A stretch of 64,000 nt of DNA, from positions 1 through 64,000 of the forward strand of contig JANXOM010000233.1 of assembly GCA_025353585.1 (NCBI GenBank), written 5' to 3'. Below, in pieces: positions 2,988-7,131 of the stretch. Position 1 is the first letter of the stretch. Every line of letters starts with the position of its first letter. Source of the stretch: Deltaproteobacteria bacterium (lineage in GTDB: Bacteria; Myxococcota_A; Polyangia; Haliangiales; Haliangiaceae). A model generated the notes under the pieces. It had not been told where the DNA came from, did no database searches, and was given only the letters and a program-made list of their open reading frames with translations. A program made the position numbers and the translations under genes.

Positions 2988-4625
2988 ATGATGTCCTCGC
3001 GCCGGATCCTGACGCTGCTGCTGTTCATGGTTGGCTGCGGCGGCTCGAGCGCGGGCACCCCGGACTCCGGTGGCGGCACGCCCGATGGCGCGCCTGGCCA
3101 CGACGCCGCCATCGACGCGCACCCGGACGCGCGCGCCGCGTGCACCGACACGCCGGCGAACTGCGCGGCCGCGTGGGAGCAGACCGCGTCGGACACGTAC
3201 GACGGCCTCCAGGGCGATCCCGGCGGCCTCGCCACGTTCCTGCGCGCCGTCCCCAAGGGCGGCGACCTCCACAACCACCTGTCCGGCGCGGTCTACGCCG
3301 AGACGTTGCTCGGCTGGGGCGCGACCGACGGCGACTGCGTCAACAGCGCGACGGACAGCGCGGTCAACCACAGCGCGTGCTCGGCGACGAACCTCGCGAT
3401 CCCGAGCTCGGGCTCGTTCTTCGATGCGATCGTGGCGGCGTGGTCGATGAAGGACTTCACGCCCCCGACCGGCAGCACGGGACATGACCACTTCTTCTCG
3501 ACGTTCGGCAAGTTCGGCCTCATCGCCGGCCTCCACCGCAACGACGGGCTCGCGGACGTCGCGCAGCGCGCGTACGACGAGAACGAGGTCTATGTCGAGA
3601 CGATGTTCAACCTCGGCAAGAACACCGGCACCCTGTCCGCGTCGCTCTCGACCGGCACGTTGACGGCGGCGGATCTGCCGGCGCTCTACGCGAAGATCAC
3701 GACGAACGCGGGCTTCGCGACGGCGATCACGAACGACGCCAACGTCGTGACGTCGGCCTACGCGGGCTATCGCCACGCGCTCGGCTGCGATGACCTCGGG
3801 TCGCCGGCGGCGTGCACCGTGGAGATGCGGTTCATTGCGCAGGTCTCGCGCACGGGCGCGTCGGACCAGGTGTTCGGCCAGCTGATCGGCTCGTTCGAGA
3901 TGGCGAAGCAGACGGGGCTCATCGTCGGCGCGAACCTGTCCTCGCCCGAGGACGACTCGTCGTCGCTCACCAACTACAACTTGCAGATGGCGATGCTCGA
4001 CTTCCTGCACACGCAGTACGCCGGCACGAGCCCGCTGCACATCACGCTGCACGCGGGCGAGCTCGTCCCTGCGCAGCTGCCGCCGGGCAACACGTTCCAC
4101 ATCCGCGCGGCGGTCGAGACGGGGCACGCGGAGCGCATCGGCCACGGGCTCGACGTCGAGGCGGAGTCGGATCCCGAGGCGCTGCTGACGGAGATGGCGG
4201 CGGCGAAGGTGCTCGTCGAGGTGTGCCTGTCGAGCAACACGCAGATCCTCGGCATCAGCGGCACGGCGCACCCGCTCGCGCAGTACCTCGCGCACGGCGT
4301 GCCGGTCGCGCTCGGGACGGATGACCAGGGCGTCTCGCGCTCGAGCATGGCCGGCGAGTACCTCCGCGCGGCGCTCGACCAGCACCTGACCTACCGCCAG
4401 CTGAAGACGCTGGCGCGCAACAGCCTCGAGCACGCGTTCCTGCCGGGCCCGAGCCTGTGGTCGCCCGACGTCGGCACGCCGGTGACCGCCTGCGCGGCGA
4501 CCGCCACCATGGGCATCGGCGACGACCCGAACCCGGCCTGCGCGGCCTACCTGGCGACCTCCGAGCGCGCCACGATCCAGTGGTCCCTCGAGCACAACTT
4601 CCTCGTGTTCGAGTCCGCGCTGTGA
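2988..4625 (+). CDS. Secreted adenosine deaminase-like lipoprotein
   Basis: Metal-dependent deaminase of the adenosine/AMP deaminase superfamily, 545 residues. An N-terminal hydrophobic stretch ends in MVGC (Cys17), a probable lipobox, followed by a Gly/Asp/Pro-rich linker, so export to the envelope is likely. Zinc-site motifs are all present: HNHLSG (His95, His97), HAGE (His355), a His in GHGLD near 386 and GTDDQG with the metal-binding Asp445. The late SLEHAFL motif is also typical. Exported members resemble ADGF/ADA2 growth-factor-type deaminases and could salvage extracellular adenosine. The substrate (adenosine or another purine nucleoside) is inferred from the family. Two adjacent ATG codons open the frame; the first is used. 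Confidence 0.88.
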   Translation: MMSSRRILTLLLFMVGCGGSSAGTPDSGGGTPDGAPGHDAAIDAHPDARAACTDTPANCAAAWEQTASDTYDGLQGDPGGLATFLRAVPKGGDLHNHLSGAVYAETLLGWGATDGDCVNSATDSAVNHSACSATNLAIPSSGSFFDAIVAAWSMKDFTPPTGSTGHDHFFSTFGKFGLIAGLHRNDGLADVAQRAYDENEVYVETMFNLGKNTGTLSASLSTGTLTAADLPALYAKITTNAGFATAITNDANVVTSAYAGYRHALGCDDLGSPAACTVEMRFIAQVSRTGASDQVFGQLIGSFEMAKQTGLIVGANLSSPEDDSSSLTNYNLQMAMLDFLHTQYAGTSPLHITLHAGELVPAQLPPGNTFHIRAAVETGHAERIGHGLDVEAESDPEALLTEMAAAKVLVEVCLSSNTQILGISGTAHPLAQYLAHGVPVALGTDDQGVSRSSMAGEYLRAALDQHLTYRQLKTLARNSLEHAFLPGPSLWSPDVGTPVTACAATATMGIGDDPNPACAAYLATSERATIQWSLEHNFLVFESAL

Positions 4626-4647: not shown

Positions 4648-5568
4648 TTAATTCTTCTTCTTCGGCTTCGACAGCCCGAACGCCACCGCCCCCACGATGA
4701 GCACGTTGGCGACGAGGGTGGAGAGGCCGAGCGGCTCGTGGCTGACGGCCGCCCCGAGGAGGACGGCGAGGATCGGGTTGATGTACGCGTAGCTGGTCGC
4801 CACGATCGGGCGCGCGTTGCGCAAGAGCCAGTTGTAGGCCGTGAACGCGACGATCGAGCCGAACACGATCAGGTAGGCGAGGCAGAGCCAGCTCTGGGTG
4901 CTCGCGTCGGTGGGGATCCGCTCGCCGCGCAGCGCGCCCACGACGGCGAGGACCGCGCCGCCGGTGATCATCTGCGTCGCCGGCACCATCCACGTGCCGT
5001 GCGCCTGGCCCTGCCTGGGGATCTTGCGCGAGAGCACCGAGCCGAGCGCCCAGCACACCGGCGAGCCGAGCAGCAGCGCTACGTGCCGCGGCTCGCCCGC
5101 GAGCGCCGGGCCGCCCATCAGCACGATGACGCCGATGAAGCCGAGCACGAGCGATGCCCACTCGCGCACGCTGGGCCGCTCCCCCGTGAGGACGCCGAGC
5201 ACGCCGACCCACAGCGGCATCGTCGCACAGACGACGGCGGCGCCGCCGGACGAGACGCTCGTCTCCGCGATCGCGACGAGGCCGTTACCCCCGAGGAAGA
5301 GCAGCGTGCCGGGGACGGCCGCGCGGAGCCACTCGCGCCGGCCGGGCCAGGGCACGCCGCGCCGCCGCGCGACCTCGAACATCACCGTGCCCGCGACGAG
5401 GAACCGGATGCTCGCCATGAGCAGCGGCGGCAGGTCATGCACGGCCAGGCGCATCGCGAGGTATGTCGAGCTCCACACGACGTAGACGGCCGCGAGGCTC
5501 GCGACCAGGCGCGGGTCGAGGGGAGCCCGGGCGGGCGAGTCGGCGATGGGAGGGTGCACGCGATCCAT
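4648..5568 (-). CDS. EamA/DMT-family membrane exporter
   Basis: A ten-helix drug/metabolite transporter of 306 residues with the two tandem EamA halves visible: VVWSSTYLAMRL begins the first half and the second runs from about residue 165 (GSPVCWALGSVLS) to the Lys-rich C-terminus (LSKPKKKN). YdcZ/RhtA/YedA-like members export amino acids and related metabolites. The ATG at 5568 is chosen because the protein aligns with the family from there; the frame upstream reads through the regulatory gap. It is transcribed divergently from a MocR-type regulator, a common pairing in which the regulator senses an amine or amino acid and controls the transporter. The substrate is not known. Confidence 0.88.
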   Translation of the reverse strand: MDRVHPPIADSPARAPLDPRLVASLAAVYVVWSSTYLAMRLAVHDLPPLLMASIRFLVAGTVMFEVARRRGVPWPGRREWLRAAVPGTLLFLGGNGLVAIAETSVSSGGAAVVCATMPLWVGVLGVLTGERPSVREWASLVLGFIGVIVLMGGPALAGEPRHVALLLGSPVCWALGSVLSRKIPRQGQAHGTWMVPATQMITGGAVLAVVGALRGERIPTDASTQSWLCLAYLIVFGSIVAFTAYNWLLRNARPIVATSYAYINPILAVLLGAAVSHEPLGLSTLVANVLIVGAVAFGLSKPKKKN

Positions 5569-5584: not shown

Positions 5585-5697
5585 GAGCAGTACAGAGACA
5601 CGATATGGGCGTGCCGGCCAGTACAGTCTGCCTGTGCGGCCTCCGCGCCGTTGAACCTGTACTGGTCGGGAACGGATGCGATGGGTACACTGGGCAG
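5585..5697. promoter_or_regulatory. Divergent promoter/operator region with three CTGTACTG-type boxes
   Basis: The gap between the divergent EamA and MocR genes holds the 8-mer CAGTACAG at 5588-5595 and again at 5619-5626, a 31-base offset. Its exact reverse complement CTGTACTG lies at 5657-5664, and a weaker relative (GGGTACACTG) at about 5683-5692. Spaced direct repeats are typical of MocR-family binding sites, so this is probably where the regulator binds to control itself and the transporter. The core promoter elements are not clear enough to call. Confidence 0.55.
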
Positions 5698-5700
5698 GTG

Positions 5701-7131
5701 GTGGCCACCGGTGGGTTCCTGTACGAGCACCTCGCCGACGAGCTGGGCCAGGCGATCGAGCGCGGCGCGCTGCGGGCCGGCGATCGGTTGCCGTCGGTGC
5801 GGCGGCTCGCGCAGGAGCGCCGCGTCAGCGTGGCCACGGTCCTCGAGGCCTACCTGCGGCTCGAGAACGCGGGCGCGATCGAGGTGCGGCCGAAATCGGG
5901 CCACTTCGTCCGCCGGCGCGGGTCGCCCTCGGCGGCGCCGCGGACCGCGCGGCCATGCACGACGCCGTCGCGCGTGTCGGTGGGTAGCGCGTACACGAAG
6001 ATCCTCGAGGCGATGCGCGATCCCGAGCTGCTCCCGCTCGGCTGCGCGACGATCGACGCGTCGTACCTGCCGATCACGGCGCTGAACCGGATCATCGCGC
6101 AGCTGACGCGCGAGATGACGTCGCTCGGGGCGCGCTACGAGGGCGCGCCCGGCCTGCTCACGCTGCGGCGGCAGATCGCGCGGCGCGCCGTCGACACGGG
6201 TGTCGCGCTATCCGAGGGCGAGCTGTGCACGACGATCGGCGCGACGGAGGGCCTGTCCCTGGCGCTGCGGGCGGTGGCGCGGCCCGGTGACGTCATCGCG
6301 GTGGAGTCGCCGGCGTATTTCGGCGTGCTGCAGGCGATCGAGAGCCTCGGGCTGCGCGCGCTCGAGATCCCGGCGCACCCGCGGACGGGCCTCGACGTCT
6401 CGGCGTTCGAGGAGATCGTGCGCAGCCAGCCGGTGCGCGCGCTGATGATCTGCCCGACGGTCTCGAACCCGCTCGGCGCGATCATGGAGGACGACGAGCG
6501 CGAGCGGCTCGTGCGCATCACGCGTCGCCACGACATCCCGGTCATCGAGGACGACGTCTACGGCGAGCTCGTGTGGGACGGCTCGCGGCCGCGCTCGCTG
6601 CGCTCGTTCGCGGGGCCGAGCGAGGACAGCCACGTCGTGACCGTCAGCTCGGTGAGCAAGACGCTGGCGCCGGGGTACCGCGTCGGCTGGATCGCGGGCG
6701 GGCGCTGGCACGATCAGATCGTACGGCTGAAGTACGGACAGTCGCTCGCGTGCCCGGCGCTGCTCGGCATGGCGGTGGCGGAGTTCCTCGCGTCGGGGGG
6801 CTACGACCGGCACCTGCGCCGGATGCGCGCGGCGATCGCGGGCAACGTCGAGCGCTATCGCGAGGCGATCCTCGCCGCCTTTCCCGACGGCACCCGCGTC
6901 TCCGCGCCGCGCGGCGGGTACGTCCTGTGGGTCGAGCTGCCGCACGGCAACGACGCGCTCGTCCTGCACGAGGCCGCGCTGAGGAAGCGGATCGTCGTGG
7001 CGCCCGGGCCGCTGTTCTCGGCGCGCGCGCGGTTCTCGAACTTCATCCGGATCTCGTGCGGGACGCCGTGGTCCGAGCGCACCGACGAAGGGATCCGCAC
7101 CCTCGCGCGCCTCGTGACGACCGCGCGCTGA
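5701..7131 (+). CDS. MocR-type regulator (GntR winged helix fused to PLP aminotransferase fold)
   Basis: A 476-residue fusion. Residues about 5-70 form a GntR-type winged helix (LPSVRRLAQERRVSVATV, then KSGHFVRRR), followed by a linker and a fold-type I aminotransferase domain. The PLP lysine is Lys320 in SSVSKTLAPGYR; TVSNPLG and EDDVYGELVW are further cofactor-site motifs. MocR proteins bind an amino acid or vitamin B6 through the aminotransferase domain and switch DNA binding. The start is uncertain: GTG at 5701 or 5698 fits the family, while an ATG at 5605 would place two operator boxes inside the gene. It probably controls the divergent EamA exporter; direct enzymatic activity is unlikely but possible. 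Confidence 0.88.
   Translation: MATGGFLYEHLADELGQAIERGALRAGDRLPSVRRLAQERRVSVATVLEAYLRLENAGAIEVRPKSGHFVRRRGSPSAAPRTARPCTTPSRVSVGSAYTKILEAMRDPELLPLGCATIDASYLPITALNRIIAQLTREMTSLGARYEGAPGLLTLRRQIARRAVDTGVALSEGELCTTIGATEGLSLALRAVARPGDVIAVESPAYFGVLQAIESLGLRALEIPAHPRTGLDVSAFEEIVRSQPVRALMICPTVSNPLGAIMEDDERERLVRITRRHDIPVIEDDVYGELVWDGSRPRSLRSFAGPSEDSHVVTVSSVSKTLAPGYRVGWIAGGRWHDQIVRLKYGQSLACPALLGMAVAEFLASGGYDRHLRRMRAAIAGNVERYREAILAAFPDGTRVSAPRGGYVLWVELPHGNDALVLHEAALRKRIVVAPGPLFSARARFSNFIRISCGTPWSERTDEGIRTLARLVTTAR

Follow-up and report, generated by a model that had tools for sequence, protein, structure and literature searches.

A conserved array of direct and inverted boxes as the predicted operator of a MocR-type regulator and its divergent EamA exporter in Myxococcota

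The window, that is, the whole 64-kb stretch of DNA analysed here, belongs to an 8.0-Mb genome in 437 contigs, and contains a MocR-type regulator gene that is divergent from the gene of an EamA exporter. The following features were assigned in the two genes and in the 129-bp gap between them:

4648–5568, minus strand: EamA/DMT exporter gene of the YedA type (Pfam EamA; NCBIfam YedA)
5588–5595, plus strand: box A, CAGTACAG, the exporter-side direct box (weight-matrix score 17.4)
5619–5626, plus strand: box B, CAGTACAG, 31 bp from A (weight-matrix score 15.6)
5632–5639, minus strand: box C, a degenerate CTGTGCGG 25 bp before D, read from the sequence and under the weight-matrix cut-off
5657–5664, minus strand: box D, the mocR-side box, which reads CTGTACTG on the plus strand (weight-matrix score 18.5)
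5686–5691, plus strand: TACACT, the –10-like hexamer of mocR, 17 bp after TGGTCG, with a presumed promoter role
5698–7131, plus strand: MocR-type regulator gene (Pfam GntR and Aminotran_1_2), with a probable GTG start at 5698 or 5701

A preliminary description had placed a repeated 8-mer between an EamA exporter and a MocR regulator, and Pfam matches confirmed both gene assignments. The exporter scored 292.2 bits against the YedA model NF008432, above the cut-off of 270. The regulator has the architecture of the MocR subfamily, with a GntR winged helix (PF00392) at residues 8–71 and an aminotransferase-like domain (PF00155) at residues 139–456. Its best NCBIfam match was YczR, at 241.6 bits under the NF052290 cut-off of 487.4, and it also fell under the cut-offs of the PdxR model NF052282 (226.5 bits, cut-off 320) and the GabR model (87.2 bits, cut-off 600). 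An adenosine deaminase-family protein of 545 residues (PF00962, 100.1 bits) is encoded at 2988–4625 on the plus strand, and the end of its gene adjoins the exporter gene.

All three copies of CAGTACAG in the window, counting both strands, lie inside the gap, at boxes A, B and D. Their positions, including the 31-base distance between A and B and the reverse complement at D, are those given in the preliminary description. Shuffles of the window contained 0.23 copies on average, and three copies in none of 100. The earlier inventory of three boxes was right as far as it went, but it missed that conservation reaches past eight bases, with the consensus CGACCRGYACAGAT in a weight-matrix alignment of relatives, and it missed the fourth box, C, which went uncounted because it is degenerate and scores below the cut-off. 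Relatives carry a better box at the position of C, and in the source genome this box is possibly weak or dead.

The 8-mer is not frequent across the source genome, with 73 copies compared to 200 of the reversed word, and the direct pair at 31-bp spacing without mismatches occurs once. When up to three mismatches were allowed the direct pair was found at five places, of which the second best has two mismatches. A search of the genome for a wider regulon found no further exact direct pair. Both extended single boxes, RCCRGYACAGWT, are overlapped by long open frames and lack another strict box (CRGYACAG) within 150 bp. The first 30 of the 73 genomic CAGTACAG loci likewise show no additional strict box within 70 bp; one of these 30 copies falls in an aminotransferase gene and is translated there as Gln-Tyr. 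Outside the gap, single strict boxes in the source genome look like chance occurrences. The genome's other MocR-like gene (C339) has no box in the 354 nt upstream, with up to one mismatch allowed. Ten perfect direct pairs were found in the 35 genomes of the order that were compared, 8 of them in a mocR/EamA gap, and only this perfect class stands out: pairs with at most one mismatch numbered 80, compared to 102 in the reversed control, and showed no excess.

The MocR protein is present in 17 of these 35 genomes, the source genome included (E-value of 1e-60 or better), and in all 17 it is adjoined by a divergent EamA homologue. Position and this co-occurrence support the exporter as the predicted target of MocR, as the preliminary description had suggested. 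A sample of 377 genomes of the phylum yielded 19 with the MocR at 1e-80, five of them already in the set from the order. A set of 32 upstream stretches was assembled from the 17 loci of the order, all further phylum loci but the most distant (13 of 14), a contig-edge pair in genome G026 (L097), and locus L053; no box was seen by eye upstream of the MocR that was left out (L081, 40% identity). The 32 stretches, of 180 nt each, hold 83 strict boxes, compared to 1.23 expected from shuffles; the loci are related and hence do not amount to 32 independent tests, with MocR identity going down to 47% in the set. Every stretch holds at least one strict box, and 10 of the 32 hold one only, which up to 11 of 200 shuffles equal. 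The 124 stretches of 186 nt taken from inside the MocR genes contain no strict box. A coincidental set of repeats is extremely improbable, and chance or a frequent word as the source of the boxes was ruled out by the shuffles, the genome counts and the conservation. The earlier interpretation of the 8-mers as operator boxes is supported on comparative grounds: it withstood both checks proposed for refuting it, as the 8-mers are conserved in orthologous gaps and are infrequent in the genome.

Outside the phylum set, gammaproteobacterial MocR relatives (L054–L062, 33–39% identity) have no EamA neighbour detectable by tblastn. Several of them have GGTACAGAT-like words upstream, as judged by eye. 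In L055, whose MocR is 37% identical, such a word lies near the MocR start, and the divergent gene is of the FixG/CcoG ferredoxin-like type; L056, L057 and L062 appear similar by eye.

Loci in which one of the two genes is missing or exchanged bear on which protein the boxes serve. No box array occurs in the 420 nt upstream of five exporter homologues that lack a MocR neighbour (in G004, G012, G011 and G008, and the second copy in G010); a sixth (G003) is cut by a contig end. The second copy in G010 has one lone word with one mismatch, and the exporter copy beside MocR in the same genome carries the boxes. Boxes are also kept where the type of exporter differs, next to a RarD-type EamA in L079, an EamA in L080, a different and incomplete EamA in L076, and a DUF2917-EamA in L069. 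In L053, a histidine kinase gene takes the exporter's place beside the MocR (74% identical), and just box D, on MocR's own promoter side, and the –10-like hexamer remain upstream. The best EamA homologue in the L053 genome (L125) is 40% identical and unlinked; a strict box, CTGTGCCG, lies 119 nt before the start of the match and is the sole one in the 3.8-kb locus, and it may mark an unlinked target or be due to chance. As a separate observation, the EamA exporter of L069 is fused to an N-terminal DUF2917 in one minus-strand open frame upstream of the MocR match, and L070–L072 have the same layout by sequence.

Many genomes encode several regulators of the MocR class, and a different regulator, encoded elsewhere, could in principle bind the boxes and control the exporter, with the MocR gene a mere neighbour. 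We consider this improbable: the boxes track the MocR gene and not the exporter, being absent as an array from the five MocR-less exporters, retained by MocRs with other EamA types, and represented by D beside the histidine kinase. The design of the boxes also agrees with MocR motifs.

The geometry of the array was compared over the 32 loci by weight-matrix scan. The boxes occur in the order A> B> C< D<. On the exporter side, direct boxes are 31–32 bp apart in 25 of the 32 loci (32 bp in L042 and L069–L072), and on the mocR side, opposed boxes are 24–26 bp apart in 16. The distance between B and C varies, being 13–15 bp in L032–L036, L068 and L073, 23–24 bp in L069–L072, L077 and L079, and 42 bp in L039. 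The seven loci without a 31–32-bp pair at the cut-off are L038, in which the box layout is irregular, L040, L045, L053, L076, L079 and L080. By sequence comparison, the boxes are thus shown to be conserved, specific to gaps with a MocR gene, and mostly fixed in geometry, and the array has the two to four direct or inverted boxes at helical-turn spacing expected of a MocR operator.

In the window, TGGTCG (5663–5668) overlaps the end of box D. Among 30 hand-anchored loci, 20 have TACANT 21 bp after the D core, and in these the first ATG or GTG follows 5–10 nt past the hexamer. Because TACANT lies so close ahead of the probable start codon, a leaderless mocR transcript is predicted, in which D would cover the –35 region of the putative promoter. 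A scan with the sigma-70 consensus gave no site. No uniform –10 was seen for the exporter; one lying at a constant distance from box A was considered and dropped, as the alignment columns there were weak.

The regularity of D raises the alternative that D is the sole operator and serves autoregulation, with A and B as remnants or parts of a promoter, and MocR having no control over the exporter. The position of D is the most regular relative to the –10-like hexamer, and L053 retains D alone. Nevertheless, A and B carry the full box consensus, their spacing is the one maintained in 25 of the 32 loci, and they are missing from the five exporters without MocR, so that this alternative is unlikely.

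The boxes thus very probably serve the adjacent MocR-type regulator as its operator, within a divergent mocR/eamA promoter region. In the mechanism that we propose, the direct pair A–B on the exporter side would be read by a head-to-tail MocR dimer, as in GabR. Box D, which is opposed to this pair and accompanied by C where C is intact, would cover the mocR –35 region and lead to autorepression. The aminotransferase-like domain would bind PLP and probably an amino acid; this binding would shift the box preference of the dimer and so control the exporter. The known MocR mechanism fits because the spacings are fixed, D lies over the mocR promoter region, and the A–B module accompanies the exporter.

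A more detailed version of this proposal is tentative, and we hold it to be possible but doubtful as a whole: the operator would consist of two facing dimer sites, A–B for the exporter and C–D for mocR, and the ligand would select between two dimer conformations, one for each spacing, with a leaderless mocR transcript. Each of the facing pairs is direct with its own spacing (31–32 bp compared to 24–26 bp), and the distance between the pairs is variable. Where the exporter is absent, in L053, the A–B module is gone and D stays.

The putative ligand-binding pocket was examined in an alignment of 31 MocR proteins. The pocket residues line up with those of solved aminotransferases: Lys321, Asn257 and Arg451 are kept in all 31 proteins, and Asp286 and Tyr288 in 30. 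The role of each residue we take to be that of its counterpart in aspartate aminotransferase. For the ligand, the preliminary description had suggested an amino acid or an amine. An amino acid is a fair guess, because the pocket residues for PLP and carboxylate are retained, and the invariance of the PLP lysine and the C-terminal arginine across all 31 proteins slightly favours one that carries a carboxylate.

The predicted operator can be compared with known MocR systems. In the survey of Suvorova and Rodionov (2016), which covers 14 deltaproteobacterial genomes with 7 regulogs, the main text gives a pair of direct boxes with a single inverted one as the commonest motif (32% of regulons), with box distances of whole helical turns and conserved TGT/TGG groups (PMC5320631). 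For 8 regulogs the survey lists four boxes arranged as two opposed direct pairs, with an arrow sense that may differ from the one used here (PMC5320631). According to the same text, known MocRs often autorepress and control a divergent gene, bind as head-to-tail dimers to direct or mixed repeats, and, in the case of PdxR, alter their box preference with PLP; their targets include RhaT-family and other DMT transporters, and PdxQ regulons contain DMT-superfamily transporters (PMC5320631).

The present operator resembles these regulogs in its design of direct and inverted repeats and in its DMT-type transporter (PMC5320631, main text). It resembles PdxR and GabR in the GntR and aminotransferase architecture, in the direct or mixed repeats, and in the predicted pairing of autorepression with regulation of the divergent neighbour (PMC5320631, main text); the targets of PdxR and GabR are vitamin B6 or GABA genes, unlike the EamA exporter here. 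The main text of the survey contains neither 'myxococc' nor 'EamA', and no CTGTAC, GTACAG or AGTAC word, in contrast to the boxes described here (PMC5320631). The YczR/YczE pair, in the account given in PMC4944035, likewise consists of a MocR and a membrane protein encoded by divergent genes, with two direct repeats and one inverted repeat in the region between the genes. However, the YczR target is YczE and not an EamA exporter, and the YczR boxes of Gammaproteobacteria differ (GTCCACT/ACTGGAC, with 12-bp spacing to the inverted repeat) (PMC4944035). A MocR group combining the present box word with an EamA exporter was not found in the literature searched; the survey supplements and RegPrecise were outside its scope, and an overlapping group may exist. 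The assignment to a new regulog with a known kind of MocR switch is well supported by the comparative data.

These results provide a concrete predicted operator, backed by comparative tests, for a MocR in a Myxococcota group that the main text of the survey does not name (PMC5320631), and tie an EamA exporter to a sensor with a predicted PLP-binding domain. The DUF2917-EamA frame further ties a domain of unknown function to the MocR–exporter pair. Two spacings in one region, together with natural loci that lack one module, offer a convenient test of ligand-driven box choice, and if the reading with two dimer conformations is true, the proposed box-preference switch of MocR would be testable in a single natural region.
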